NCBI RefSeq assembly: GCF_037975245.1
Contig: NC_092576.1
Coordinates: forward strand, 40,180,111 to 40,244,110
Reading direction: 5' to 3'
DNA length: 64,000 nt
Source of the DNA: Apostichopus japonicus
Lineage: Eukaryota > Echinodermata > Holothuroidea > Aspidochirotida > Stichopodidae
Position numbers and translations under genes: made by a program
Notes under the pieces: model-generated
What the model was told of the DNA's origin: nothing
Database searches by the model: none
What the model saw: the letters and a program-made list of their open reading frames with translations, nothing else
Shown here: piece after piece, positions 19,899 through 63,548 of the stretch
Layout of the letters: each line of letters begins with the position of its first letter
Numbering within the stretch: the stretch's first letter is position 1

Positions 19899-20228
19899 CA
19901 TATGTTGAGTAGCTCAAATTCAACCGTTGTTCTGGGTAGTAGTTGAAACCGCTACTACGACACGAAATATTTCCAGTTTCTTCAGTTATTCGCAGTGCAA
20001 ACCGTATCCATGTGTCAAAAGTGGTCTTGTTCAAAATTGCAAAGGTTGTATGGATGGTATCTGATGGTGATATTTCTTCATTGTCCACCGTAACAGAAAG
20101 ATTCACTGCAGGTCTGCTTCCAGTAGCGTAACATGATACAGGTATGGTTGTATTATAAGGTATGTCAAGTGTTTCTCCATTATCATGGTAAGAATGCCCG
20201 TCTACAATCATATATAAAGTCGGTGGAA
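19899..20228 (-). CDS. Copy A exon 2: second Ig domain
   Basis: The exon is 330 bases (110 codons), phase 1 at both ends, exactly the length of copy B exon 2. The acceptor is preceded by a long T-rich tract (poly-A on the plus strand at about 20241-20255). Confidence 0.82.
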
Positions 20229-20913
20229 CTGATGATGACAAAAAAAAAAAAAAAATTCAAAGAAAGACAATACGTTAAGGAAATAGAAGTAGAAAATTAT
20301 AATAAGGTATAGTTATTACACGTACAAAGGAACGCTTGAGGATTTCAAAATATGTTGTTTTCCTGGTCGGAGATATATCTGGTTGATCGGATAATAAATT
20401 AACCTAGTTTGTTTAGTGCACAACATTTAACAAGTACAAATCGTAACTTAAACAATTATCCCCAACCGAACCCATCATATCTGCCTCAATAAGAAAATAA
20501 CATTGTGAAAATTTAACTTGGAATGATATATCTGCGGTGGCGTACTGACGACGTGACAACACAAACTACTACAAACCTTCAACGTCTACGAAATACGTTG
20601 ACAAAATCTCCTGGTTCCTGATACATTCGTACTTTCCAATATTCAGCAGCGATATCGGCTGGATGTATACTGACTTATTGTGTAGTAATTGCAAACTCTC
20701 TCTTAAGTCGCTACGCACTAAGAAATCTTCCACAAATAGAATTTGTTCTTGAAAATTCCACTCAATTTTGTTGTCTTTCTCAGTGTTACAACCATTAAGA
20801 AAGACCGACCCATTCACTGTTTTTGTGTAATAATATACACTAGGAGGAATTTCAGCGTATGCCATGTTAAGGATAGGAAAAACTTGCAGACATACGTAGA
20901 TAATAGCTCCCAT
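19899..20913 (-). CDS. Two-exon Ig-domain protein, receptor-like (copy A)
   Basis: Exon 1 (20577-20913) begins at ATG with a signal peptide (MGAIIYVCLQVFPILNMAYA). It encodes a V-like Ig domain with Cys in FLNGC, Trp in KIEWNF and the YEC of GKYEC. It ends at a phase 1 GT site. Exon 2 (19899-20228) follows an ATCAG acceptor and encodes a second Ig domain starting VPPTLYM, with Cys in PVSCYA and NISCR and several N-glycosylation sites. It ends STYG at a phase 1 GTAAGT donor. Both frames and all splice sites are intact. Reading through the exon 2 donor would add about a dozen codons and stop, giving a secreted protein. No membrane, stalk or kinase exon was recognised downstream, so the 3' end is unknown. 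It is related to the 5' part of the pseudokinase receptor at 51951-63548. Confidence 0.8.
20577..20913 (-). CDS. Copy A exon 1: signal peptide and V-like Ig domain
   Basis: The start ATG sits in the context AGAAAAGTAACATGG, conserved in copy B (AGAAAAGTAATATGG), which supports this start. The exon is 337 bases and ends VDVEG at the donor GTTTGT, in phase 1. Confidence 0.8.
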
Positions 20914-21300
20914 GTTACTTTTCTGAAGTATTGCGTTATATAAAGAGCATGTTCCTAATGTGAGTTGAACAATCGGTACAATGCTGACAAAAGCAACGTT
21001 GACTTAGCTTGTAATTGTGTGCACTCATTAAGGTACGGATGCCGGTTAGTTCTCTCACAGAAATAATTTTAAACGAATTAAACTCGTCCAGATACTTCTC
21101 TATTACATCACAGTACATTTGTTTGCTATGTATTGTACATTTAAAAGATGATTCTAATTCGGTTCCGTATAGACAGACCCTTTGGGAGTACGAACAGACG
21201 ACTCTTCTTGATTAGAAGTATAAATTATTCGGCACTTGATATGTAGAAAATCGCAATTCATTAGAATTAGCATGTTGTCATGAAGAAAAAAAAGTCGTCA

Positions 21301-23122
<1,822 letters not shown>

Positions 23123-24774: not shown

Positions 24775-25753
24775 CTTTGATTCAAATCCAGCATAAACAA
24801 AGCCAAGACCAGAACCTTCCCTGGCGCTGACATCGGAAGCGACCACTATCTCGTCCCCATGTCATTCAAGATGAAACTGAAGGCCAAACGCACCCTCAAG
24901 AGTCTGCGCATCCGTTTTGATCTAGAAAAGCTGAGGAACCCTGATGTTGCCCAGGTATTCCAGTCCCAAGTCGGAGGGAAGTTTGCAGCATTAAACCTGC
25001 TTGATGTGACGTAGACTCGCTTGCTAACAACATCAAGGACGTTCTACAAACCACTGCCGACTCTGTACTGGGTAAATACCGGAAGAAAATCCAAACATGG
25101 GTTACATATGAAATCCTTGAACTCTGGAATAAGAGGCGAGTGCTGAATGGGGAAAGGAATATGGGCGAGAAGGCACGAATGCAGTACCAACAGATGAACA
25201 ATGCGATAAGGAAAGGAATGAAATCAGCAAAGGAAGGATGGATCTAGAAACGATGCAGTGCTATTGAGCGCGACATGAAGACAGGGAACAGCAAACATGC
25301 CTATAACACCCTCAAAGCCGTCACTAAACCTACACAACCATAGGCAGCCATCATCGAGGACAGAGACAACAAGGATGTTCTGAAGAGATGGACTAAGTAC
25401 TGCAACGACCTCTACAATTACGAGCTAAATCCTGTCATCGGCATACTGCAGAACCACCAACAACCCCCCCCCCCCCCCCAACGGAGGACCAAGGCCAGAC
25501 CGGAACGGATGGTAATAGCTCTGCGGGATGGGAGGACAGTCTGACTGTATTGAAAGCCAAGATTGAAGCAGCTATACACAGCCTAAAACCAGGTAAATCT
25601 CCAAGAGTGGACAAAATACCATCTGAGTTGTTGAGAGGAGTTAACCATGGCCCTAACTGCCCTCTGTCAGACGATCTGGGAGGAGAAGAAATGGCCCAAT
25701 GAGTGGGATGAAATCACTGGTGATACCACTACCGAAGAAGGGAAACTTAGGCG

Positions 25754-26300
25754 TTGTCAAACCTACAGGACCATAAGCCTGATAAGCCACCCAGCAAGAT
25801 AATGCTTCGTGTGATTCTATACCGACTAAACTCCAATGCCAAGGACTTACTATCTGAAGAAAAGGCAGGTTTCAGAGCTAGTCGGAGCACCACCGAGCAA
25901 ATTTTCAACTACAGGGTACTTACTGAGAAACATCTCCAGCATCAGCGCGACCTTTGCTACAACTTCATCGATTTCAAAAAGCCCTTCGCCAGAGTCTGGC
26001 ATGATGGCCTTTGGCATGTCCTCAGAGAATTCAACATCGATTAAAGACTTGTTCAAGTCATCCATTCACAGTACAGTCACTCTAGCAGTGCAGTTCTTCT
26101 GAACAACCAGCTAGGAGAGTTCTTCCAGACAACTTAGGGTGTTCGACAGGGCTATCTACTTTCTCAAGTTCTTTTCAACTTATTCCTCGAAAGAACCATG
26201 CAGGAAACTCTCCAAGACCACCATACCTCTATCCCCATTGGTGGACGGCCAATCTGCAATCTTCGGTGTGCTGCTGATATAGACATGATGGGAGGCAACA
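25754..26300 (+). pseudogene. RTE reverse transcriptase, palm fragments
   Basis: AGFRASRSTTEQIFNYRVL is the conserved RT block before the palm. Downstream shifts carry the YNFIDFKKPFARVWHDGLW block, where an intact element has a catalytic Asp in FxDF+KAFD; here it is FIDFKKPFA, so the second position is altered. A later reading with CAADIDMMGG corresponds to the YADD box (ADD changed to ADI) just before the TTAA insertion. Confidence 0.75.
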
Positions 26301-39251: not shown

Positions 39252-39449
<198 letters not shown>

Positions 39450-41535: not shown

Positions 41536-41865
41536 CATAAATTGAGTAGCTCACATCCAACCGTTGTCCTGGGTAGTAGCTTAAACCGCTACTATGACAC
41601 GAAAGAGTTCCTGTTTCTTCGGCTGTTCGTAGTGCAAACTGTATCGTTGTGTCAAAAGTGGTGCCGTCCAAAAATGTATTGGTTGAAGTGTTGATATCTG
41701 TTCGTGATATTTCTTCATTGTCCACCGTAATAAATAGATTAACTGAAGGTCTGCTACCAATAGCGTAACATGACACAGGTATGGTTTTATTGTAAGGTAT
41801 GTAAATCGTATCTCCATTATCATGGTATGAATGCCCGTCTACAATCATAGATAAAGTCGGTGGAA
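41536..41865 (-). CDS. Copy B exon 2: second Ig domain
   Basis: 330 bases, symmetrical phase 1 exon. The acceptor ACCATCAG precedes TTCCACCG, as in copy A (ATCATCAG, then TTCCACCG). Confidence 0.82.
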
Positions 41866-42558
41866 CTGATGGTAACAAGAAACGATTTTCAAAGAAAGAC
41901 ATTGTTTAAAAGGAAACAGAAGAAGACCTTTTCAATGTTAGTTATTGTATGAGACAAAGGAATTCTGGAGGCTATAAAATAATGCTTACCCATTTGGCGA
42001 TATTGCACACCAGGTTGAGCGGAAAATTAATTAACCTGTTATATATAGTACATACTATTTAACGAGTACAAATCGCCCTTTAAACCAACATCCCCAACCG
42101 AACCTATCCTCCCTGGCTCAATGAGAAAAAAGAAAAAGAAAAAACCTGAACAATTAATTTATAATGATATGTATGTGATGGCTTACTGACATACGTGACA
42201 AGACAAACTACTACACACCTTCAATGTCTACGAAATACGTTGACAAAGTCTTTTGGTTCTTGATGCATTCGTACTTTCCAATATTCAGCAAAGAGATTGG
42301 CTTGATGTACACTGAATTATTTGTCAGCATGTGCAAACTGTTCGTCAAGTTCGTCTGCAATAAATTACCTGCAAAAAAGAAAAGTCGTCCTTGAAATTTC
42401 CAATTAATTGTGTCATCTTTATCGGTTTGGCAACCATTTAGAACAAGAGATCCATTCACCACTGTTTGGTATGTATAAACACTAGCAGGTATTGCAGTAT
42501 AGGTCATGTAAAAGATAAGAACAAGTTGAAAAGTGACGTAGATTGTAGCTGTTTCCAT
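41536..42558 (-). CDS. Two-exon Ig-domain protein, receptor-like (copy B)
   Basis: Exon 1 (42219-42558) starts METATIYVTFQLVLIFYM, a signal peptide, then a V-like Ig domain with LNGCQ, the IGKYEC motif and the Trp of INWKF. An in-frame ATG ten codons upstream exists, but the downstream one aligns with the copy A start and has the same context. Exon 2 (41536-41865) encodes a second Ig domain (VPPTLSM to YSIYG) with Cys in PVSCYA and LSCHS, phase 1 at both ends. Reading through the GTAAGA donor gives only a few codons before a stop. No later exon was recognised. Frames and splice sites are intact despite strong divergence from copy A, which suggests that both are under selection. Confidence 0.8.
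42219..42558 (-). CDS. Copy B exon 1: signal peptide and V-like Ig domain
   Basis: 340 bases, ending VDIEG at a GTGTGT donor in phase 1. The last residues (STYFVDIEG) match copy A (STYFVDVEG). Confidence 0.8.
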
Positions 42559-42900
42559 ATTACTTTTCTGAAAATGTTTGTGATCCAAGCGTCATTGTCT
42601 TAGCATGAGCTATAACAATCGGTATAACTCTGACAAAGCGATGTTCTTTTCATTTGTACTGTCACGTGTACACACTAAGTTACGGATGCCGTTTAAATCA
42701 CTCAGTTTATACTTTTTCATTTGTTTTCATTTCGAATATGATGTGATTTGGTATCGTCTAGAAACATACTTTTGAAGCACAAACCGTTGACTTTGCTTGA
42801 TTAGAGATAGAACTTAAAAGATAATTCACTAATCGGTACTTGATGTGTAGAATTTGGAATATATTGGAACCCAACTTTGCCATTAAGAAAAACAAAACTT

Positions 42901-45900
42901 TGCGTAATACCATATAACTTCTCTACTTTTTTTTTCAAAATAGCAAATGTGCCTCACTGGCACATTAAGTTTGCCCCTTTGATGAAGAACTGACTTCTGG
43001 ATATTGAGACTTTTTTAATGTTAATATTGTGTTTTAATTCTTTAATTGTAGTCTGTACATGCTATTTTTAAAATGGCATCCCATATCTTTTGTAGCATGG
43101 TAAACGATAAACAATCTCAATAAATAGTATTGATAGCATACTAACACATCATTATATTTAAGTGATATGGCCAGTGTTTATCGATTCATAGCATAACGAG
43201 TGATGGTTGTGGAATGAGAAAGTGCCCCTCTGATGCTGTGCCCCTACCCCACTTTTTGGAAGATTCCTACCCCCTGGGTACATTCATATCATTGTAGCAT
43301 GTTTACAGGTATTTTTATTTTATTTTATGCAGAATACATTATTTAACAAGGGCGTTAATCTTAAACGCGGCGATTGTTTTTCATATTAATTTTTATTTAT
43401 AAAACTCAAATTTCAATATTGTGCTATAATGGTATATGAGCTAATTGTGACTATCGGTAAAACGTATTGGTATATATTTTCTGCAAGTATTCGTCTCGAT
43501 CTCTTTAATGTTATTGACTCAATTCATGATAACACAAGTATCTGATCATTTCATTTAAATTTGTTTTTTCCGAACATGTCTATAACCGCTCAGATAATTT
43601 TATTATGCATTCTCATATTTGATTTATATATTCCTGTTCTATTTTTATTTTCCTCGCATAATAGATCTTTAACTAATCAATAGCTGTTAATACTTCAGAG
43701 ATTCCACGTATGCACTTGTACACTTCTATAAAAAGGAGTACACTAGATAATAAAGATGGGTGTACAATGATAATTATACTGCATTATCATAAGGAATCAT
43801 TCCTGCACTTCTTTGAACACTGCTTACACAGTGTGATAACAGCAGAGATAAAGTGTTCATCGAAATTTGTAATGCAATATTATAAGGATTGATTTTGCAC
43901 TATATTTTTTTAATATTGGGACAATGAACACTGGAGATAAAGTTTACATTGATAACTACGAAAAACTATCACGGTTGTTGCACAGTATAGTTTGACACAC
44001 AATTGATGTGAACACTAGGCATTCTCTTTGATGATTTACTAGCATCATCATATGTACTTTCTTAACATATTATGCATGCTTTTGTGTACATATTATACAG
44101 TTCAGTAAAAGCTACGCAGTTGTGCACCCCATATAGTAGTTGTACAGTTTTAATGCACTATTCGTGTGTACACTGAACCAAAACGATGTACGTTGTTAAA
44201 TGCACATGCGTCATAGTCACTCCCACTGTCCCTGCGTAGACACGAACACTAACACTTGTATATAAGTTGTTTTCTTAATCAGCACGCAGATGAGCTCATG
44301 TTTTAAGTCCTACTGTTTGAGACATAGAGCTGTAAAATTGATTTATCTAAGGTTATTACTTCACACATAGTATTACATACGAATTACTCCATGATCAAGT
44401 GACAATTTCTTTCTTTTCTCGAATATACATATACTTATGGAATGCACTTCCGGTACTTGTTTTTGTTTTCAATTTAAATGGAATCATTCAAAGTTATATT
44501 AGTTTGCTTCAAGTTTTAAGTTCTATTGTTTGATACAGATATGTAAATTAGATATATCTGATTGTATTTTACTTCACAAATAGTAAAAGAAGTTCTTTAC
44601 GATCAGGAGACAAATCTGTTTTACCAATATGCTTGTTGTTATGGAATGCACCACGGTATTTGTTTTTGTTTTCATTTTAAATGGAATCAGTCAAGTTATA
44701 TTAGATTACAGTTATTGCCTTCTTAATAGATAAACATTGTTTAAATTTAAACTAAATTTCTCATATATTCTTTAGGGTAATTCTCTATTCTAAAATATCC
44801 TACTCATTTCCTGTTTTGATGTACAACAGGTAAAATCCGTATTTACAGTGACAAGCAGTAAAGGAAATTCACAAAGGAAATAATGATTTAATAGTGTCAA
44901 CTTGTAGTCTACTGCACGATACTGCACGATAACCGTATCACAGTATATATAACGTTGAATAGTAGTGAAACACAGTAACTAACACGTCAAAATGACTGAC
45001 AGTCAATACACTATTATTCGAAAGTCACACAGGAAACATTTGTAACGCGCATTGACTTTTGTTTTCTGTGAAGCCAGTTAATAAGCGTGTTGTGCGGAAG
45101 TGTTTATGATGTTACCATTAATTTCACATTCATTGGTTAAAGTGAGAGACACACGATTTTTTTTTTGCAATTTGCCCATCAGTCGATGGTGTATTGGACT
45201 ACATGTAAATTTGATATTACTCTCATCAAATGAGACCCTTTAAGTAAACGTGTATCTCCCCTGCAACATAATAGTTATTCTGATGTATTGTAATAGTCTG
45301 GAGTGTGAATTCAAGCTCGCTGCTTTAAAGGGATCCACTTTGTAAAATGATCACAAGTGATCACACTTAACCGTATCATATTGCAATAAGTTTGAGTTAA
45401 TATAATAGTTACATGTTTTGCATATTGACCGGCATTTTCTTTTAAGGTTCATTTTGGTTTCATCCCATTAAAAGTTATTATTCTGTTGGAACATGTAACA
45501 TGAGTGATAAGTTATTTGTTTCGACTCATAAATAATGTTATCAAAAAGTTAATTATGTAGTCCACCGCCATTTCACTCACTACGGATACTGATGAGCCAG
45601 AGATTACCTCCTGTTCCCCATTGTTTGGTACATGCCGTGTCACAGTATCTTACTCCATCTCTAACCAGTTGTCCTACATAGCTCATCAGGCACATATTCT
45701 ATGTTATCAACAACAGTATCTTCACAGATCGCTTCACTCGGTAACCAACGTTATTACTTTTACCTTGACATATCCTAAACATGTCACTACAGAGTCAACA
45801 CTTCTTTGTAAACAAGTCTTGTTATGATTGATTCAAAATAAATAGGAAATGCAATCTTAAGAAGACTGAAGCTGCTTCGTGATGGTACAATAAAGGACGT

Positions 45901-46995: not shown

Positions 46996-47335
<340 letters not shown>

Positions 47336-48441: not shown

Positions 48442-49735
<1,294 letters not shown>

Positions 49736-51950: not shown

Positions 51951-52034
51951 TTAATTAGCAGTTCCACCCATTGGCATGTATGATTCGGAAAGTGGTATCT
52001 CATAGAAACTGTTTTCTATTAGAGTTTCAAAAAT
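51951..52034 (-). CDS. Receptor last exon: tail with YEIP and YMPM
   Basis: 27 codons plus TAA, phase 0. IFETLIENSFYEIPLSES, then YMPMGGTAN. YMPM fits the YxxM consensus for the SH2 domains of PI3-kinase p85, and YEIP fits the YxxP form preferred by Crk/Nck-type SH2 domains. Acceptor TTCACAG. Confidence 0.82.
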   Translation of the reverse strand: MFETLIENSFYEIPLSESYMPMGGTAN

Positions 52035-55000
52035 CTGTGAACACAAAAAAAATTACATGTGGATACTTATGATTAGATAAAAAAAAAGTTGTTTCTTAGT
52101 TATGAGAGTCTCTAATGACTTACAAATAATTGGCACGTTGTAAGTTTCATTTTCGAATTCCCAAGAAACAAGTTAAACACATAGTTTGGTGTTCGAGACA
52201 AGAATTAACATATTAACTTAAGCTGGTTGGCATTAGATTGGCTTTAACGGTAACGTAGCAAAATTCACATTCTTTTTTTCATGTGTAACATTATAAAATA
52301 AAATGTACATTGTTTGTTTTTCTGTTCATCTGAAATAAATGCATAACTTAGGAAACGATTTCACTTACTGCTTTGAATGATTCTTTAAGATGATGAATTG
52401 AAGGTCTAAGAGAACATGTTTGACTCCAACAATCAAATAATACCAAGTTCCTGTCAAACGAAAATACAGAATGATATATTCATTGGTTCATCTTGGTACA
52501 CACTATTTCTCTAAGGCAACAGTGAAATTGTTATCAACCTTATATATAACATATTTTGCGAAACGATCTAAGGTTATCGTATATAACTTTCAGAATGTGT
52601 AATACTAAAGAAAGGTATTCAATGTAATGGGTTAAATGTTTACACCCACTATTACGGTGTGAGATGAGAATTAAGTTCTCTCATTTATATATCTAGTCCT
52701 AATTTTCCTAATTATTAATATACCATATCATCACGTAGAGTTCTGACAAGATTTTGGCAGAACCGGATCATGCGTTTTTTTTTTGTGTGTTTTTTTTGTG
52801 AGGTTGTTTATCTCTCACCAGTGCTCATGTGAACACATTAACATTTGTTAAAATACGACCTTAGTGCAGGATTTTTGTATCGTTATTTTTTTTCATTACT
52901 AGTCTCGATGAAAAATATAATGATCTTTTTTCCATGATATATTTATGTGAATTACTGCGATGGTTCACATAATGTATATTAAATGAATAAATGATTAACG
53001 ATTGCCATGGTATTTAGTCAATTTAGTAGATAAAGGATACCTCAGTTGAAAGTATCTCTGAGGCCAATTTAACGTCGGTGCTTTAACATCTTGACCGGGT
53101 TTTATATCTTCATCAACTGGAAACGGAGAGTCTCCTTTGGGAAATATTCGAGAAAAAAAAATAATCATAAATGCTATTTTTCAGAGAATATCCCTTACAA
53201 TGAACTAGTGTGTTGTATCTAACAACATTTTTCTATCAAAAAGGGAAAACAAAACTTTGGTTCAATACATTTGTGTACTTTAAAACGCATGGAACTAAAA
53301 CGATACACCTTTCATGAAAGTATGGCTATTTTAGTTTAAGCCACATTATTTTGCGTATTAAGAAACTAGAAACATAAACGTTGCTTTCTAGATTAAGTGA
53401 CAGGTTATAGGTCGATTTCTCAACGATTTTAATATCGATAGCCTTAAAATCAGCCATGACACTTTAAAAATACAAGCAAAGCAACTTTCCAAAATTGCTA
53501 CTTTCATACGTCATGCTACCTTAATCGAATCTGGTTTTTCAATATTCGTCTTCCTAACATACACAAATGTTAGCAACACTATACTATGATAACGACCATA
53601 TATATGGATTAGGCTCATACACATAATACATGTGTATACTTTATTTACCCATTGATAATATCTCCCATATTACTACAGCTGTGGACCATACATCACTCTC
53701 TGCAGAATATTCATTACGGAAGAAAGATTCTGGTGGAAACTGATTGAAAGAGACAGTATTCATCTGGCAAAAAAAAGAATTGTAAACACCAACTATGGAA
53801 ACACAATTTTTGGGGAATTTTCCATTAATTTGGGAGTTAACATATCCATAATCAACATGTGTAAAACAAAATCTCCGAAAACCTTCTATACACCATCAAA
53901 AAACGACCACGAAAGATGACATTTTGGGTAGTCACGTGACATGTACCTCTGGAATGTCTGAAAACAGAGAATTACCCAAAAGGAGCCTCTGGTCACCGTG
54001 TGACGTCATATTAGGTATACCGCGATAATCAAACGCTGATATATGTACTGTATATACACAGATAGGAAACAATGGTACTGTATTTGGCTTACAATTTCGA
54101 GCGTTTGGAAAGCTGCTAGCTCAAAACAAGAATACATGAATGTTAACAACTAGTTTTAAGACAATTTTAAGCAGACAGAGTGAAATTGATTATGTTATAT
54201 GCAAAATTTCTACTCAAATGGAGGCATTTTTTACATAGCGGAGCGTCAATAGGTACGTAAGATACAATATACTGTAGAGCATGCAAGCAGCTTGCCGATT
54301 CCTTAATACAAGTTGATCGCAAGATACCGCAAACTGAACAGAAGAATGCGCGATTACCCCAAAAAAACACTAAACATAATCGAACAATTACGAGGAGACG
54401 CTTGCCCGAATCTGCCAGGGTAGCATATGCATGACTAAGCTTCAGTTGAACATAGCCCTTTAGTTACTCGTTTTAATATCCAAAACTACAAACACAGAAA
54501 CAAGTATCCCGTCCATCAACCAACTTTAGCAGTGAATATCCAAATCCACGTTTCACGTTCAATCCTGGGCGAAATACTACCGGGACTTTATGCAATTCCA
54601 TAGAGTTAATTCTAGTTAAAACAGGCCTTGATCACTAACATCCTACAATCACAACACAGTTACTTACGAAATAAAACGTCCGATTGCTAGATAGTACCGT
54701 TTTATCCACTCCTTGGACCATACAGATGCCACAACAAACAAAACGGACAATATTACATATGTATCCAGGGGCGTATCCAGGGGGGGCGCAACAGGCGCGC
54801 GCCCCCCCTATTGGCCGTCACCAAAAAAGAAAAAAGTTTAGCAAAAAAAAAAAAAAAAAAAAAATTGATGACGACCTTTATGTGAGATGTCGGTGATCGC
54901 TCAACCCCCCCCCCTCCCGTATGCTTTATTTTTTGTTTGCCAAAAAAAGGTTCTGGCGAAGTTCGGCGGCATAATAGTTTTAGAAACATAGATGGTAATT

Positions 55001-58000
55001 GTGTTTGTATTATCACTATAAACACTAAATGACATGCCAGCCATACTAAATTGTGCATTTTGTGTCCATATTTACTGGAAATGTTGCTTATTATTAAGGT
55101 CGAAAAATGGATCACATATGGCCATGGGCGGCGATCCTGGGTGGAGGGGGGATATATCCCCCCATGGAAATGGGTGGAGGGGATGTAATGCACCATACCC
55201 CCCCCCCCCCACCAAATGCCAGGGATAAGAATATTTTCATGCCTACATTTATGCATCTTCGTTAATGTACGGCTCTTTTTTAGCTTCATTTCTCGCCTAC
55301 CATAAACGCAGTGCGATCTTTTCAAATAAAGCGTCTTTATAAAGCAAAAATAGTTGACTGTAGGCTTCATTGGCCCTATAACAACAAAATGTATTATTGC
55401 GCCCACGGTATTGATATAGTACATATATGCACCCTCATAGTATTCATATAGGCCCTATAGTAGGCCTACACACGTACATGTTCCCTCGAACAGCTGAGAA
55501 TCTCATGTAACCAGGGTAATGCTTAATACACGTTTCACCTGGATGCCCTAGCAATCGGTACCTAGGAATGTAACTATGTGTAATTGTGTATTGCATGTGT
55601 ATAGGCCTATAATAGCCTGCATGAGGCCATTTTCTTCATCGAATAATATAACAGAGCTCTCGAACATTCTAACGTTGCGCCTGAAGCAAGATTGACAGGG
55701 GCAATTTTCCCAAAATAACACCCGAAATTAAAAAAAAAATTATTTTGGATCCTGATTATGAGATATTTCGGACATGACATCCCTATTTTAAAGTTGGGTA
55801 TATGCCGCTTGGAAACCTCGGGAAGTGCCGTTTCCGGCCATCTAGAGGGATTGTTAATCCCAAAATCTTCTTGTACGCTTCGCGCCAACTCATGGTGGCG
55901 CTACGCTTAGATAGTCAACAAGGTCATATCCCCCGCCCCCACTCGGAAGTACGGATCGCCGCCCATGCATATGACACCATTTGGCATTTCAGCCCTTCTT
56001 TGAAAGCAAAAATTGTACACCCCCTCCCCTTAGACCCATCCCCCAGGACGGCGATCATTCATGCCTGGCGCCCCCCCTATTGGAAAATCCTGGATACGCC
56101 CCTGTGTATCTATCTAGATACACGGTCTATACACGTTCTACATACGGTCATCTCAAAAAGTAAATAGTATACTGTCAATTGCGTGATATAATGTTACATT
56201 TAAAGACGTCCAGGGCGTGTTTACGAGGAGACTTGAAAGGGTCAATTTCCAATTAGCTATGTCCGCCACAGCTGTCGAAAGTATGTTTCGCAGAATGAGA
56301 TATTTGCGGCACACACATAAACAAGGTCATGCAATTGGACTGATGGGCATGATTTATTCCGGGTGCTGAAAAATCTTTCCGAGAGGATCTCACAAACTTG
56401 ATCCAAAGTCTACGGCGTTTTAGGTCGGTTCTTCTACTCTGATGCTTTTGTTGGCTGATGTATAACTGCCATCTCCAACAATACAGAATTGTGGCATATT
56501 GGGGAAAAGGTAGTAATATCGTTGCAGTTTTTGGCAGCATAAGTATACAACTTAACAGACTAAAAGTGTTGTTCTGAGTGCTGTATACCAAATATAGCGT
56601 CATATGGTCACCTAATGTTGTAGGAATGTTTCAGGAATGTCTGAAATGGGTTGCCGAAAAAGCTGTATTTTCTTTCCATGTTTACGTGTTAAACGTTCGA
56701 AATTGGTAAAGTTAAATACAGCAATGTTAAGTATTACATACACTTACATACATGCACAGTGGTGGTATTTTATGTTCATCGAAAATTCTACATAGTTGAC
56801 CTTTAAAAACTACAACTATGACTGACTTTTTCGTACATATTGGCAACATGGTTTATTTACAAAAAACAACTGAGAATGAAACATTTATTTTTTATCTTCT
56901 TTACTTTTATTTTGTTCTTATTTTTAGAACATATGGAAACCACAGTGAATAATCAGAGACAACCAAGAAAGAAATTGTGCCCTTTTCATCATTAATAAAC
57001 ATGTGACTTGCAGTTATATATATTTTTCATCATTGGACAGAAATATTAAGTAAGCAAACGTTTTGTTTGGTGATATTTTATGTAATAACATGCAAGCTTG
57101 TTTAATGAATGAGGTGAATTAGTTTCATCAAAATAATGTTAAATAAAATCTATTGCTATGCATACATTAGACGTTCAAAATTGGTTCTGGATGAATAATC
57201 ACCTGTGTTTTCTTTATAGTTACTATCTTTGACGCATCTTCAGCAAGGCAGAAATCATATAATTTACAGATGCCTTCCTTTGTGTATAGAATCTTCTTAG
57301 TCGATAACCCTGGATGCAAAAACTGTTGAAAATAATAGAATCAACTATGTAAGGAAAACTCTGATATCGAATCTTTCAAAGCTAACATAAAACACAAGTA
57401 ATAACTTCAAACAAATAAACTATTACAAATTGAACAAGGCCGGCTTGATGTGATCAGGGAGCAATTTATTAAATTTCTATTAACTATTATGAAAAGCGGT
57501 TCGATTGTTGCCGTCAACAATAATTATCAAGAGATTATATGATTCGGTTCACAATGATAACTTATGCATTTTTTGTATTCAAATTTCATGTGGCAAGTTG
57601 TTATTGATTCTGTTTGTTGAATTTTTGGTTACCCGGTTGTCACACTAACACAGGTGTAGCGTAATCTATAAATACTTTCAATAGTAATGATCATAATTAT
57701 TCATTTTTTGTTGTTGGAAAAACAACAACTAATAAGCAACATTAGTATTGATACATGCTTGTACCACCGACTCACCCCAAACGACTGCAAACATTCTATT
57801 CCTTCCACAATGGCAGTGATATGTTTCATTACATCCAGTACTAAAAATGGACTGCTATGTGAACTCGGGTCAAATGTAAGGCGGCTTTCCAAAGTCTCAC
57901 ATACACTATGTTCAGTAACGAGGTAAAGATTGGCTGTAAGAATAAAAATCCTACTAGTATGATATAGGATTGATGATAATACTTCTTGCAGCTCGATGAT

Positions 58001-61000
58001 ACGTTTATATGTTTCCATTGAATATTTATGTATACGCCAGGAAAAGAGGCATTCCTATTCGTAACTGCAATGAGTACGATGAATACCATCAATTATCCGA
58101 TTATGCCCTTCACTGATTGTTGAAGATTGCTTTTAAGTTTATGTTGCTTTAATTATGGCATGATGATTACACAATTGGTGAATTAACAAGTATAGAATAG
58201 TCCTAGACAATGCCTCTTAAAACATTACTAAATTCCAGACTTAGTAAATGATTAGTTTATGGGGTTCTGCGTTTGGCTGGCATTGTAATTGACTACATCG
58301 AAATAATCCTTGCGTTATATCAACAAAAAACATGATGTTAGTTTTGTACCAGTATGGATGTGTAATGTATGAATGTACGTGATGAAAGAATAGCTCACTT
58401 TTGTCGACTGCTATTCCCTCAATTCTCGTAAGACGATCGGTCGTAGGTAGATCAAGTGTTCGTTTCACAAATGAATTCCAATGGATAATTTTTTTCTTCG
58501 TTATTCCCTCTAATGCAGAAAAATGGGGTAATAAACACAACAGTGTACCGGTCATATATGCTTTTAGCAAGGAAGGCACATTTCTCTGTAAGGTAATTGA
58601 CTTACAATTAAAAAAAATGAATGAGACATTTCAAGTCGCTGTTTCCTTTCCTAAGCGCTATTTTTTAACACAAGCGGAAGGTTTTCGTTAAAATTTTTAC
58701 CCTTGAAGCACATGGGTGAACATAAAGGGTACCAACAATCATGCTGCGACCTACCTGTGATTGTCGTCAGAACCGCGCATTTGTTGACGTCACTGGACAT
58801 TCTTATAGTACCCATCCATCTATTGTATATTGTTCCGACCTTTATAGCTAATAAGATGCAGAACTCACTCTCAGTAAATATTCTGTCCTTTGTCCCTCTG
58901 TCCTCTGCCGCAGAGTAATAATCTGTAAAGCAGAAGCAGACGTAAGAAAACACAAGTTAAGGTTTTACATGATTATTAAGAAAACTCCATACATGTTTTA
59001 TAGGTAACACGGTGACAGTATATATTATAAGGAATATACGTTTTCATAATATACAGGTCATACAGTACACATCTTTATAATGTGACCTTATACTATCTAC
59101 AGGCAGAGTCAGCTGTTGGACGATCTCAATATTGCGCATAAAGGAAATATAATATAAGTATATGTACACAATAGACGTATGTCACCTTAAATGATGTTGT
59201 TTTTCATGCTATTTATAATATCATGTATTCAAATACATTTAACGATAACAATACAATAATATGTTAGCATTTATCATTAAGTTATGCACTGTGCCTCAAT
59301 TGACATATTAAGATAAAACCAACTTACTGCTTTCACTGCCGCTAGAGTGGATGGAATTGCTTTCGTCGATCGGAATACTTGGAAGATCTGATCTGAAGTG
59401 AAATCAAACAACAAAAGTGAAACTGTCGATCACCTACCTTTTCCGCATCAAAGAAGACAGTAACAAAGCTAGTTATAATTATCTGAGATGCCCTCGACTA
59501 CTCGAAAGATAATTAAAGAAACTCATTTACATGATAAAAAAGTATTGAGCACGATTAAACGTTTACGTTATACACAATTAGAGTTATCCCTTGGTAATTC
59601 AAACAATATCGTTGACATATTATATCATAACAAATAAAGGTTAACATTTTATGCATGCAGTCAAATGAATAACTAAACACCTTTCATGAAAATATTTAAA
59701 CCATAAACGCAGCTTTGGGCTTTCTGAGTTCAGCCAAGGAGATCTACAATGTATATTCTTAACATCATTGATTGTGTTTGGCCTTTAGTTTATTAGTCCT
59801 TACTTCTGTTTGTTTTTTAGACTCCCTTGTAACGGATTCTGTAAAACTAAAGTAAAGACAGAAATGTAGTAGTTAAAAAGATTCCAACTACAAACGATAT
59901 GTATATGATTTATAATAGTGATTTAAGACGTTTTTTTTAACTTACGTGATTGTTCAGCCGGCAAAGTGTTGAGTTGCAGTTGAGTTGAACCACCGAGGGT
60001 CGTATCTGCATCTCTAAATTAATAACATTCAGTTAAACTTTTGTTATCTTTAAACGTTTCTTATCTGCAGTTTTAATTTCCAAACCAAAAGCCTTTGTTT
60101 AGAAAAGCTTGCAGGTTTGAACATTTAAAAAATGAGTCTAATACCTAAATAAATATGTATTACAAAGTACACACCAAGTTAACCCTGCATCCATGCGACC
60201 TTATTTTAGGGCAATATTCATTTTACAGAGACATAGACTGGATGGACATGTAGTCGTCATAACATATACCATAACTTACGTGACCACTCTAAGTAATAAT
60301 AATACTAATAATAATAATAAATACTACTTATATAGCGCCTCCCAAAAATCTCGAAGCGCTGTACAGTAAAAAGAAAGTCATCAACAGAAAAACCAGGCTA
60401 AGAAACCAAAAGATGCAAACTCAAAAATATACGACATACAATATACAGATAAAACAGCTAAGAGGATAAGACTATAGTAACCTACAAAAATAAATCAGGC
60501 TAAAGAGCAAACTAGAAAGTCATTGTATAACCAACCAATGACGACCATTATTCTAAAGTCTGATTCTTTGTTGCTGAGTATGTCATTTTGAAGTCAATAC
60601 CAAGCAAATGTTAATGTAAAAAAGTCGAGAGTTTACAAGTATATAAACAACAATACAAAAAAAGCGAAAATGAAAGTCTTACGTTGACAAATTAAAAGAC
60701 ATCGAAGCTGCAGAAAATATGGAAATATCGTGTTAATTCCAAAATTATTCTACCATATATTGGAGACTGAAGGGATCTGAAAACCAGCATTAAAACATTT
60801 TATATTGAACATGCCTACAAACCAGTTATCATTATTTACAATCACCCTGGATACTTCGTAAGTCTACTTCAAATTGGTTCTCTTGATAGTAAAGTTCGCA
60901 CAACCATAATGTTTGTGTTCATGATTATCTCATAGCATAGCATACCAGACCAATTGTAAGCCACTTAACTTACCTCTGATCTTCATTGTTATCTTATAGA

Positions 61001-63548
61001 TGCAGACAAACAAGAAACAAGTTAACAGAATAGCAATACTCAGTATGATCCATTGAAGATAGCCAAATCCTGAAAGAAAGTTGAGACTTTACCAATTATC
61101 TTAACAATTTATTGAAACATGTTATATATGGATACTTTACAGGTGAAATACCAATTAACATCATTAAATACAATCATGGACATGTTTTGTAAATGGACAT
61201 TCAACTAGTTTCACATGTTAGTGCCTACTCAAGTCTAAGTAAAGTAACTTTGAATGACGTCAGAGGTTCGTTTAACTCCTATTTCCGTATATTCCAAGAA
61301 TAACTATGGATCTAAGAAAAGTGTGATAATATAAATTAGAAAAAAATAGTATCAATACTAGAGAGTTCAATAATAAATTCCCCTCTGCATCATTGTTGCT
61401 ACAGATCTACCATCGTGAATTAATCTATTAGCATTAAATAAATAGCTTGATGGAAGAAAACCTGAAGATTGCGGTCCTGAGGTGTGGGGTTCTGTCGTTG
61501 ACCTATCTGAAGGAAAATTGAGACCGGTTGGAGAAAAAAAAAATGATGATACTCTGTAGCTGGTTATTTTCAAGCAAGAATTAGAAGAAACGAAACTCTG
61601 TAATAGTTAATTTTCACTGTAAGTTGATCTCACTTTATACTTTGTAGTAAGCATTCTATTAAAATTACATGATTACTCAATGATCATTTCATAACGAAAC
61701 AACATTGCGAAATATTGTAACAAAGAAACAAACCAAACTATATTAATATATGAGATTAGAATAAATAAATTCAAAGCATTAAAGTTATTGATCATCACTA
61801 GATATTTTGAGAGCTCTTTAGCCTTAGCATAAATTACTCATGATATCCAATCCTGAAAGTGTTGGTTGAGTTGTCGACTCGTCTGTAAGAGAAGAAAATA
61901 TGTTTAACTATTTTCGTCACTCAAAATCTTATTGAAGGATACGGAACAATATTAACTTTGATATGCTGTAGAGAGTTAAAAAAATACTGTTATAATTCTA
62001 AGGGTGTAATTCTTACCACATCATAAGATAAGTTAATCACTTGAGGTTCATCAACTGAAGTGACTGACTTAAGGACATATGATATTCAGTGTCACCCAAT
62101 TTGACACATATTTTTTATTTCTTGAAAAAGGGATACATAGGGAAATGTTATAAACACTGTTAGGTTTTTGTTTTTGTTTTCTGGAATAAAACATATGAAG
62201 ATGAAAGCTAACATTCTACATAAATGCATGCTTAAAAAACCAAAGCTTAAATAGACACCTTACGAAATGCAGAACTGGGAAACAGAAAGCCGAACTTTTA
62301 ACATTCTTTGATATCCCACATTAAATTATGTTTATAATGTTGAAACGTTCCGTAAGTTTAATTTTTTAGGATTTTGTTTTTCCCAAGTTCCCAGAAGATT
62401 TACATTCAATCCATAGGCTCGTCATCTAGCGTCTTACTAGAAGCGCAGACTGTCTACTTTAAGACTCAGTTGTAACAACGTTTAAGAATGACATATATGT
62501 CTACATAACGTAGTGGAAGGCTTTGTTTGCTTACCAGACAGAGTAACGGTCACCGTGACACTTGTTTTGAGATCACGTTCACTGTCTCGTCGTTGTGTAC
62601 TCGTACATGTAACATTCTCTTCTTTCAGCGGATTTATCAAAACAAACGTTATTCTTCTGGACGCATTTGTGGTCGGGGTCATTTCAGTCACAACTTCATT
62701 GCGGTCATTAAATGATAACACTGCTGTAGGTCTTGCTCCATCCGCATGACAAATGACAGTCAAATTCTCTCCAGCAGAAACATACTTCTTATCGGTTCTT
62801 TCTCCATTCAAAGTAATGTAAAGCTGTGGGAAAACTTATATCAACAGAAGAAATACACATGCAGTTGTGACATATATTAGGTATCGATTAGCTTTATCAG
62901 ACATACCTTAAGATGCTATTTAAGAAATCTAAGCTTGTTTAATGTTGAATGAATACTAGAATTGTATATTGTATTTGATTATTGTGCACTTTAAACTGGA
63001 AGAGCGATATTTTTACAGTCAAGGAGGATAACATTGAACAGGGAAATCTTACTAACTATAATCAAATGCACCATTTTTTACGCTATAAAAAGAAATAAAA
63101 TACCTGTAAAACATTTTTGTAATACCGACTTATATATGCGCTAAAATGTACACGTTGCGGGAATTACATTTAACAATATTTGGTTTCTATCAGTTTGCTT
63201 CCTAGTGTGCTGTGATACACGATGCTGTTAACTTACCGTAGGTATAGAGTGACACTCCCACATGATACTCTGATGATGTCACACTATTGCCATAGCAGGA
63301 AATCTTTTCATTTTCTTGTGTTGGTCTATAATGCAGCAGAGATTTTGAATTATATATTTGAGTATCACCTTCTGTAACATTAGTTTTTGTATAAATCCTA
63401 TCGCGATTATTTATAACCCAGGAAAGGTTCATCTTTGGCCTTGCTTCCCAAGCAAAGCATGTTATCACCATTAGTTCATACTGGGGAACCCAGACGTAAG
63501 ATTGATTAAGTGGAAATTCGTTGATCTTCAGTGACATCCTTGGAGGTA
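51951..63548 (-). CDS. Ig-domain receptor with tyrosine-pseudokinase domain, 5' end beyond window
   Basis: Sixteen exons read by eye join in a single frame of 625 codons plus stop. Approximate residues are: Ig 1-104, Ig 105-204, stalk 205-234, membrane segment about 240-262 (WIILSIAILLTCFLFVCIY), juxtamembrane 263-340, kinase-like domain about 345-595, tail to 625. Kinase landmarks are visible in order. The glycine loop keeps only its third Gly (KVGTIY). The beta-3 AVK is AVL. The hinge is NLYLVTEH. The catalytic loop HRDL....N is HPGLSTKK, DFG is DFC and APE is PPE. SDVW and DCW...LRPS are intact. Loss of Lys, Asp and Asn predicts no phosphotransfer, while an intact frame over 16 exons argues against a dead gene. 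YEIP and YMPM end the tail. A signal peptide and first V-like Ig exon are expected to the right of the window, as in copies A and B. Confidence 0.85.
52369..52450 (-). CDS. Receptor exon: last kinase-fold segment with CW...RP
   Basis: 82 bases, phase 2 to phase 0. NLVLFDCWSQTCSLRPSIHH carries the conserved Cys-Trp and the Arg that buttresses the APE Glu, showing that the fold is maintained. Acceptor TTGACAG, donor GTAAGT. Confidence 0.87.
53041..53134 (-). CDS. Receptor exon: C-lobe, alpha-G region
   Basis: 94 bases, phase 1 to phase 2. GDSPFPVDEDIKPGQDVKAP is the G.xPFP....E...+....P segment of tyrosine kinases. It ends QRYFQLR. Acceptor CCCAAAG, donor GTATCC. Confidence 0.8.
53649..53763 (-). 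CDS. Receptor exon: shortened activation segment to alpha-F
   Basis: 115 bases, phase 0 to phase 1. VSFNQFPPESFFRNEYSAES, then DVWSTAVVIWEILSMG. PPE stands for APE and SDVW is conserved; the usual Phe-Gly after SDVWS is Thr-Ala. Only 17 residues separate DFC and PPE, with no tyrosine pair, so the activation loop is short. Acceptor TTGCCAG, donor GTAAAT. Confidence 0.88.
54766..56104. mobile_element. Non-autonomous inverted-repeat DNA transposon in a receptor intron
   Basis: The ends are CAGGGGCGTATCCAGG on the left and CCTGGATACGCCCCTG on the right, a perfect 16-base inverted repeat except at inner positions. They are followed inward by the related GCGCCCCCCCTATTGG. The element is flanked by the exact 6-base repeat TGTATC (54760-54765 and 56105-56110). 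No transposase was recognised. It lies in the 3.5-kb intron between the catalytic-loop and activation-segment exons. The ends look hAT-like, but a 6-base duplication is not typical of hAT, so the family is uncertain. Confidence 0.8.
55123..55967. mobile_element. Second inverted-repeat transposon nested in the first
   Basis: It begins CATGGGCGGCGATCC and ends GGATCGCCGCCCATG, a perfect 15-base inverted repeat. It is flanked by 8-base direct repeats, CATATGGC (55115-55122) and CATATGAC (55968-55975), that match at 7 of 8. Eight-base duplications and short inverted ends suggest a hAT-type non-autonomous element. No transposase frame was recognised. It must be younger than the element that contains it. 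Confidence 0.78.
57224..57322 (-). CDS. Receptor exon: degenerate catalytic loop and DFC
   Basis: 99 bases, phase 0 both ends. FLHPGLSTKKILYTKEG aligns with FIHRDLAARNVLVTEDG, so R, D and N are P, G and K. KLYDFCLAED replaces K.SDFGLA.D: the metal-binding Asp is kept and the Gly becomes Cys. Acceptor TCAACAG, donor GTAACT. Confidence 0.88.
57776..57933 (-). CDS. Receptor exon: hinge and alpha-E
   Basis: 158 bases, phase 1 to phase 0. TNLYLVTEHSVCETLESRL is the hinge region of a tyrosine-kinase fold. It continues to the alpha-E block AIVEGIECLQSFG, which leads directly into the catalytic loop of the next exon. Acceptor TCTTACAG, donor GTGAGT. Confidence 0.85.
58399..58509 (-). CDS. Receptor exon: alpha-C helix and beta-4
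   Basis: 111 bases, phase 1 both ends. It starts (E)GITKKKIIHWNSFVKRTL and ends TRIEGIAVDK, equivalent to the alpha-C to LLGVC region of kinases. The conserved alpha-C Glu appears to be Arg in FVKR. An open frame extends upstream of it, but the acceptor CTGCATTAG restores the correct phase. Confidence 0.75.
58755..58922 (-). CDS. Receptor exon: start of pseudokinase N-lobe
   Basis: 168 bases, phase 1 both ends. It starts with NYYSAAED and runs through the degenerate glycine loop (LLAIKVGTIYNRWMG) to beta-3 (NKCAVLTTIT). Two of three loop glycines are replaced by Leu and Ile, and the ATP-binding Lys of AVK is Leu. Acceptor TTTACAG, donor GTAGGT. Confidence 0.75.
59328..59392 (-). CDS. Receptor juxtamembrane exon 3
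   Basis: 65 bases, phase 2 to phase 1: SDLPSIPIDESNSIHSSGSE. Acidic and Ser-rich, without kinase similarity. Acceptor CACTTCAG, donor GTAAGT. Confidence 0.65.
59804..59846 (-). CDS. Receptor juxtamembrane exon 2
   Basis: The 43-base version, using acceptor ACTTTAG, joins phase 1 to phase 2 and gives LLQNPLQGSLKNKQK. The nearer acceptor TTTACAG gives a 35-base exon that does not fit the frame. The donor GTAAGG is strong. Confidence 0.5.
59946..60005 (-). CDS. Receptor juxtamembrane exon 1
   Basis: 60 bases, phase 1 to phase 1, encoding TTLGGSTQLQLNTLPAEQS. Acceptor GATGCAG, donor GTAAGT. The frame was chosen because the other two contain a stop or break phase with neighbours. Confidence 0.6.
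60285..60420. repeat. (AAT)n with a short conserved repeat end
   Basis: AAT triplets at about 60296-60330 are followed by TTATATAGCGCCTCCCAAAA and TCGAAGCGCTGTACAG. This pairing of a TNN microsatellite with a GCGCC...GCGCTGTAC end looks like the tail of a common dispersed repeat. It lies in the intron between the membrane exon and the first juxtamembrane exon. Confidence 0.5.
60974..61069 (-). CDS. Receptor transmembrane exon
   Basis: 96 bases, phase 1 both ends. It encodes GFGYLQ, then the hydrophobic run WIILSIAILLTCFLFVCIY, then the basic stop-transfer KITMKIR. Acceptor CTTTCAG, donor GTAAGT. One membrane pass places the kinase-like part in the cytoplasm. Confidence 0.85.
61462..61506 (-). 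CDS. Receptor stalk exon 2 (45 bases)
   Basis: A phase 1 exon with RSTTEPHTSGPQSS. The acceptor CCTTCAG is good, but the donor GTTTTC is weak, so the exon may be optional. Skipping it keeps the frame. Confidence 0.55.
61838..61882 (-). CDS. Receptor stalk exon 1 (45 bases)
   Basis: A 15-codon phase 1 exon with ESTTQPTLSGLDIM, Ser/Thr-rich as in an O-glycosylated stalk. Acceptor TCTTACAG, donor GTAATT. It has the same length and a similar STT start as the next exon, so the two probably arose by exon duplication. Confidence 0.6.
   Translation of the reverse strand, partial: TSRQLNQHFQDWIS
62535..62834 (-). CDS. Receptor exon: membrane-proximal Ig domain
   Basis: 300 bases, phase 1 both ends. 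To keep phase the acceptor must be ATATAAG before TTTTCCCACAG, giving VFPQLYITLNGER; the nearer CACAG acceptor would break phase. Cys residues are in LTVICHADGARP and ENVTCTST. Donor GTAAGC. Confidence 0.8.
63237..63548 (-). CDS. Receptor exon: Ig domain homologous to exon 2 of copies A and B
   Basis: 312 bases, phase 1 both ends. It begins VPPRMSLKINEF (first base of the Val codon from the previous exon) and has Cys in MVITCFAWEARPKMNLSW and EKISCYGN. It ends SLYTYG at GTAAGT. The VPP start, the RPxxNLS motif and the YG end match the second Ig exon of copies A and B. Confidence 0.85.

Follow-up and report, generated by a model that had tools for sequence, protein, structure and literature searches.

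A predicted immunoglobulin receptor gene with a pseudokinase domain belongs to a large family in the sea cucumber Apostichopus japonicus

The window analysed here, a stretch of 64,000 nucleotides of the 671.6 Mb genome of Apostichopus japonicus (C16:40180111-40244110), carries a gene for a receptor-like protein with immunoglobulin (Ig) domains and a tyrosine-kinase-like domain. The gene comprises 16 exons on the minus strand (51951-63548); every intron is GT..AG, the phases match and the joined exons give one open frame of 634 codons followed by a TAA stop. The original prediction, made from the letters of the window, had placed both end points exactly to the base, and its sixteen-exon open frame was confirmed by rebuilding the chain and by the identity of all 634 residues to residues 333-966 of an NCBI A. 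japonicus protein (P0001); as P0001 could itself have been predicted from this assembly, the identity has no independent transcript weight. P0001 holds 332 more residues upstream of the window end, with further Ig matches, so the window cuts off the 5' part of the gene. The Ig-Ig order first proposed is a shortened view of the ectodomain.

The first exon within the window (63237-63548; minus strand, as for all exons of this gene) encodes an Ig domain, running from VPPRMSLKINEF to SLYTY, that matches PF08205 (C2-set_2). It is followed by an exon for the membrane-proximal Ig domain (62535-62834), for which PF13895 and PF13927 fall below their cut-offs with the window piece and above them with the whole of P0001, by two exons for a Thr/Ser-rich stalk (61838-61882 and 61462-61506) and by one for the transmembrane segment (60974-61069; hydrophobic run LQWIILSIAILLTCFLFVCIY). 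Three juxtamembrane exons (59946-60011, 59804-59846 and 59328-59392) come next, the last with an LPSIP motif. The exon at 58755-58922 encodes the juxtamembrane YY and the N-lobe of the kinase-like domain, with an RWMG motif and the β3 segment KCAVLTT, in which Lys is replaced by Leu. The remaining exons encode the αC region with Arg at the Glu position (58399-58509), the hinge and start of the C-lobe (LYLVTEH; 57776-57933), HPGLSTKK in place of HRDxxxxN together with YDFC in place of DFG (57203-57322), PPE and SDVW (53649-53763), more of the C-lobe (53041-53134), CW..RP at the end of the domain (52369-52450) and the C-terminal tail with the TAA stop (51951-52034). The C-terminal end, SFYEIPLSESYMPMGGTAN, contains YEIP and YMPM. 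These assignments come from the chain rebuild, with alignment columns for the N-lobe, αC and HPG exons and family-wide motif counts for the LPSIP and tail exons.

A broken gene with a frameshift at 58399-58585 was ruled out, as the longer N-lobe exon (58755-58922) and a start at 58509 remove the frameshift; the frame and start of exon 58399-58509 had been given correctly in the original prediction. The Pfam scan of P0001 found PF08205 and Ig_2/Ig_3 and, besides the kinase, only Ig families; there was no ErbB-type L or furin-like ectodomain and no Frizzled or kringle domain, the hallmarks of ROR receptors. An Rfam scan of the window gave no match. The gene probably encodes a type I receptor with several Ig domains, a Ser/Thr-rich stalk, one transmembrane helix, a pseudokinase of tyrosine kinase fold and a short flexible tail.

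The kinase-like domain of P0001 matches PF07714 (2.3e-26) from profile position 37 onward only, leaving the Gly loop and β3 region unmatched. Its structural model is a complete kinase fold close to FGFR, at about 18% identity; the absence of PTK7 from the 60 PDB matches listed for the fold carries no weight as evidence. HPG, the loop Lys, DFC and AVL (in KCAVLTT) are present as originally described. The positions of the β3 Lys, HRD Asp and DFG Asp are occupied by Leu, Gly and Asp, respectively, the last because YDFC aligns with ADFG of FGFR1. The claim that the domain lacks every key catalytic residue thus holds for the β3 Lys, αC Glu, HRD Asp and loop Asn, all of which are replaced, and fails for the DFG Asp, which is kept. 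Judged by residue loss, the kinase domain of this gene is a pseudokinase.

The same losses were found in a census of 111 family proteins (P0001-P0107 and P0113-P0116), collected by protein searches from two assemblies and isoforms of A. japonicus, from Holothuria leucospilota and from four other contigs; 110 were aligned, 95 of them with all six catalytic columns. Ninety-one of the 95 retain the DFG Asp alone and two retain none, while P0082 retains the HRD Asp and DFG Asp and P0088 the loop Asn and DFG Asp (1/95 each); none keeps three of the six residues. Column by column, the β3 Lys is present in 0/103 proteins, the αC Glu in 0/105 (Arg or Lys in 93), the HRD Asp in 1/103 (Gly in 97), the loop Asn in 1/103 (Lys in 102) and the DFG Gly in 0/103 (Cys in 97), and the DFG Asp is kept in 101/103. 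The replaced codons vary synonymously among 20 genomic loci, with both Cys codons and three Pro codons in use; at the HRD Asp position, Gly occurs in 17 loci (four codons), Cys in two and Ala in one. Conservation among paralogs and orthologs, selection on the codons (below) and the fold model support the pseudokinase receptor originally proposed. Orthologs with intact HRD and DFG and relaxed codons, which were to count against that proposal, did not appear among the 95 complete proteins. A hallmark N-lobe motif, RWMG[TS][IV], places a Trp near the Gly-loop region in 98/98 family proteins with the column; 8/106 lack the column.

A single odd gene, the orphan receptor of the original prediction, was rejected by genome and protein searches and by scans for HPG and KL[YF]DFC, which place the gene among some hundred or more family loci. 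When the species' own genome was searched with the protein piece from HPG to SDVW, at least 150 exon matches were obtained, being the best 150 of 533 candidates. The KL[YF]DFC pattern occurs at 112 places in the genome (14 for the reversed control) and a looser HPG..K pattern at 91 (control 0), counts that refer to loci rather than proven genes, as some near-identical copies may be assembly duplicates. Of 30 KL[YF]DFC loci sampled, 26 were family members after reading (27 were flagged by script; L007 was a false flag). The exact intact motif HRDLAARN occurs at 30 places (control 0), so that HPG-type loci are about three times as numerous (91 versus 30), although the HRDLAARN count misses active kinases spelled otherwise, such as Src-type HRDLRAAN. 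The HPG and KL[YF]DFC scans overlap only in part since, on C1-C16, 29 of 83 HPG places have no KL[YF]DFC match within 200 bases and only 54 of 99 listed KL[YF]DFC places have an HPG match. Family arrays lie on C12, C4, C15 and C16, and several members are annotated as if they were normal, functional receptors. Of the altered versions of HRDLAARN that were seen, HPGLAARKVL, at C16:9833763 and C21:15062990, is the least changed; these loci are possibly near the ancestral inactivation step.

The tail motifs of the window gene recur across the family. In 82 usable tails (25 of 107 proteins were dropped for truncated or unplaced ends), YxxM was present in 75, compared with a mean of 7.8 and a maximum of 17 in shuffles; Y.PM was present in 53 and YE[IVTA]P in 42. 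In the 50-member alignment A2, only Y387 and M390, the Tyr and Met of YxxM, reach ≥ 90% beyond L362 of P0008. In the juxtamembrane region, 73 of 86 members have LPx[IVL]P, and 79 of 86 have a motif of the YY or YS[AT] type. Phosphorylated YxxM binds the SH2 domains of PI3K p85 and phosphorylated YxxP suits Crk-type SH2 domains.

Codon models were fitted to 281 domain codons of the window gene and 19 paralogs, four of which are poorly filled; across these 20 loci the omega of the domain was 0.187. The log likelihood was -8250, compared with -8673 when omega was fixed at 1 with tree and kappa held, a cost of 423 units; the pseudokinase domain is under purifying selection. Between the window gene and five close paralogs, pairwise omega was 0.26-0.41, and codon changes private to the window gene comprised 12 nonsynonymous and 11 synonymous ones, where about 3:1 is expected without constraint. 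Among 13 well-filled loci omega was 0.173 for one juxtamembrane exon plus the tail (48 codons) and 0.204 for the domain. Protein identity of the membrane-proximal Ig domain to eight paralogs was 31-86%, and that of the intracellular part was 59-89% for six of them. Where proteins are known, the family shares much the same disabling changes, and selection maintains them.

A FastTree phylogeny of 96 kinase regions contained 27 single-source clades across Apostichopus, Holothuria and other-contig rows, and one 44-member Apostichopus clade. A quick IQ-TREE tree of 63 rows needed ten genus changes, and a single Apostichopus clade was rejected at p-AU 0.023, a moderate result by a quick method. Several already dead gene lines probably predate the Apostichopus/Holothuria split, and much of the Apostichopus set is younger than it. 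As the replacement residues are common to both genera and several gene lines appear to be older than the split, the replacements probably predate it too. In protein searches, which detect only relatives with shared exact 5-residue words (one search scored 7999 candidates), the family was found only in sea cucumbers and four further contigs, with nothing elsewhere above ordinary kinases; the first unrelated matches were MAP3K12 of thrips (2.6e-7) and an SRK3-like protein of sawfish (5.6e-20).

A phosphopeptide, IEAISIQS(ph)SK, was reported from A. japonicus intestine as part of a 'Tyrosine kinase receptor Cad96Ca-like' protein (PMC6037860), and IEAISIQSSK matches exactly 12 of 107 family proteins, the window gene not among them. 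At 3 days of regeneration the phosphopeptide ratio was 0.581 and the protein amount 0.641; since the two agree, the fall mainly reports less protein. Two family proteins, P0080 (810 amino acids) and P0083 (974 amino acids), are encoded on short contigs (3.8 and 4.2 kb) that resemble spliced transcripts, with no room for introns like those of the window gene.

In PMC5638244, 'tyrosine-protein kinase receptor' is one of five families given as expanded in A. japonicus, and expansions of this kind are connected there with signal recognition and the nervous system. PMC6018497 gives 38 Fgfr genes in A. japonicus compared with 4-13 elsewhere, most of them in a clade of their own; they are mostly repressed during aestivation and activated during regeneration, in which a role was proposed for them. 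Both reports are repeated in PMC13228809. From the labels, the lineage-specific clade and the species, the published 'Fgfr expansion' is probably largely the dead-kinase family, and the receptor expansion of PMC5638244 probably overlaps it. If so, the explanation offered for regeneration needs rewriting. The 3-day proteomic ratio points down, unlike the Fgfr activation reported for regeneration. The consulted parts of PMC5638244 and PMC6018497 treat the genes as kinase receptors and do not mention catalytic residue loss, and no title or abstract opening in the literature surveyed presents them as pseudokinases. In the portions available, a study of the holozoan tyrosine kinome (PMC8662651) does not mention sea cucumbers, Apostichopus or echinoderms, and one paper deals with a different kinase family, RIPK and MLKL of H. 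leucospilota. Nothing decisive came from the parts seen of PMC9890533 (AjFGFR2; no receptor sequence or accession), PMC9854957 and PMC12784826 ('Cad96Ca' in gene lists) or PMC10874539.

The reading we favour, and hold to be reasonably likely, is that of a large family of pseudo-receptor kinases that are phosphorylated by a partner and recruit PI3K-type SH2 proteins. The Ig part would bind a ligand or a neighbouring cell, and the pseudokinase, unable to transfer phosphate, would dock or be docked by an active tyrosine kinase through ligand-driven pairing. The active partner might then phosphorylate the tail tyrosines (YEIP and YMPM), and the phosphorylated tail could recruit SH2 proteins: PI3K p85 to the YxxM site and, perhaps, a Crk-type adaptor to the YxxP site. 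A single fixed output module would thereby serve many different ectodomains, much as ErbB3 serves its partners. That the window gene itself signals through a partner kinase, as the original prediction proposed alongside a scaffold role, we infer, and the conserved tail YxxM, a feature absent from that prediction, makes it more likely.

Several observations weigh against this scheme. The ligand, the partner kinase and the phosphotyrosine are putative parts of it, and the published phosphosite is a serine of another subfamily that tracks protein amount. YxxM is missing from 7 of the 82 tails, four of these among 21 Holothuria tails, and the YxxM counts come from related sequences that are not independent. 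One of the 20 loci (L038) has an in-frame stop in the pseudokinase, where the NCBI models P0011 and P0036 end, and L041, L045, L046 and L049 fill only 202-242 of 329 codons. By a rough hydropathy rule, 65 of 90 family models have an upstream membrane helix and the other 25 lack one; some of these proteins may therefore be cytosolic or incorrectly modelled. The retained DFG Asp makes nucleotide or metal binding possible.

The family might instead consist of decoys or dominant-negative receptors, binding ligand and dimerising with active FGFR- or VEGFR-like receptors to damp them, with the pseudokinase as dimer surface. The FGFR-like fold would suit this, as would Ig-only or short NCBI family models, namely P0015 and the models P0011/P0036, cut short as locus L038 is. 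A decoy, however, makes the tail motif superfluous, yet tail and juxtamembrane region are as constrained as the domain and most tails carry YxxM; we consider the decoy unlikely. All three short models lie on a 46 Mb contig; P0015 ends after its last Ig domain and has no membrane helix by eye, P0011/P0036 stop inside the pseudokinase, and they are possible soluble or short natural forms. Still less probable is an atypical catalytic activity of the domain, whether phosphotransfer at a reconstructed site or another transfer reaction, based on the DFG Asp and the new Lys, Arg and Cys. Those residues are indeed near-fixed (DFG Asp 101/103, loop Lys 102/103, basic αC position 93/105, DFC Cys 97/103), but the β3 Lys, αC Glu, HRD Asp and loop Asn are lost together, and we know of no active tyrosine kinase that lacks all four. 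The stop in one of 20 loci and a few truncated models could also point to decaying or mis-built genes, functionless read-through from a duplicate under relaxed constraint. This is very improbable given the omega of 0.187 across the domain and of 0.26-0.41 for the window gene, its 12 to 11 private changes, well below the 3:1 ratio, the one family phosphopeptide (PMC6037860) and the long frames of P0080 and P0083 on short contigs.

The partner-dependent reading sets the family beside, and apart from, known receptors. The active split-type receptors FGFR and VEGFR resemble it in Ig ectodomain and fold, whereas nearly the whole family has lost the catalytic Lys, Glu, Asp and Asn to other residues, identity across the fold is about 18% and the tail is short, with YEIP/YxPM; it is not an FGFR member because catalysis is lost, neither HRD nor the β3 Lys being intact. 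ErbB3 (HER3), as generally described, is similar in outline, with a poor or dead kinase, PI3K-type YxxM docking and the need for a partner. ErbB3 has several tail YxxM motifs and keeps the β3 Lys, while the window gene has one tail YxxM, an Ig ectodomain rather than an ErbB-type one and membership of a large family rather than the standing of one gene; the Ig ectodomain excludes the family from ErbB3. PTK7 (CCK4), compared by description, also joins an Ig ectodomain to a dead tyrosine kinase domain; its ectodomain comprises seven Ig domains, its kinase motifs are degraded in a manner of their own, and a tail YxxM is not known as a hallmark of it. ROR receptors have Frizzled and kringle domains, both missing from the scan of P0001.

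In animals, the pseudokinase receptors known are few and encoded by single genes. The present family offers numerous naturally occurring ectodomains joined to one kind of pseudokinase-plus-YxxM module, useful for the study of dead-kinase signalling. It is tempting, although on balance doubtful, to see in it a germline Ig recognition repertoire of some 100 or more receptors, with diverging ectodomains, one constant inherited dead-kinase module, a PI3K-type tail and activity drawn from a few shared active kinases. The regeneration-linked 'FGFR expansion' would then be a system of pseudoreceptors serving immunity, self-recognition or cell contact.

Two further Ig-Ig units lie on the minus strand of the window. 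The sister gene at 42 kb has an N-terminal Ig exon with Met (42220-42573) and a second Ig exon (41537-41866), with 61.9 and 77.3% identity to family ectodomains; the second sister unit, at 20 kb, has an N-terminal Ig exon (20578-20928) and a second Ig exon (19900-20226), with 66.7 and 77.1%. No transmembrane or kinase exons were found for either unit within the window, and the sequences suggest that 19900-20928 and 41537-42573 are partial duplicates or secreted forms. On the opposite, plus strand, a fragment at 43689-43760 resembles the tail of another family branch (P0050; 75% over 24 residues), and 25751-26041 encodes a reverse transcriptase fragment (PF00078, 3.3e-9). Long AT dinucleotide arrays lie between the array genes (22979-23120, 39254-39444, 47036-47295 and 48460-48763).

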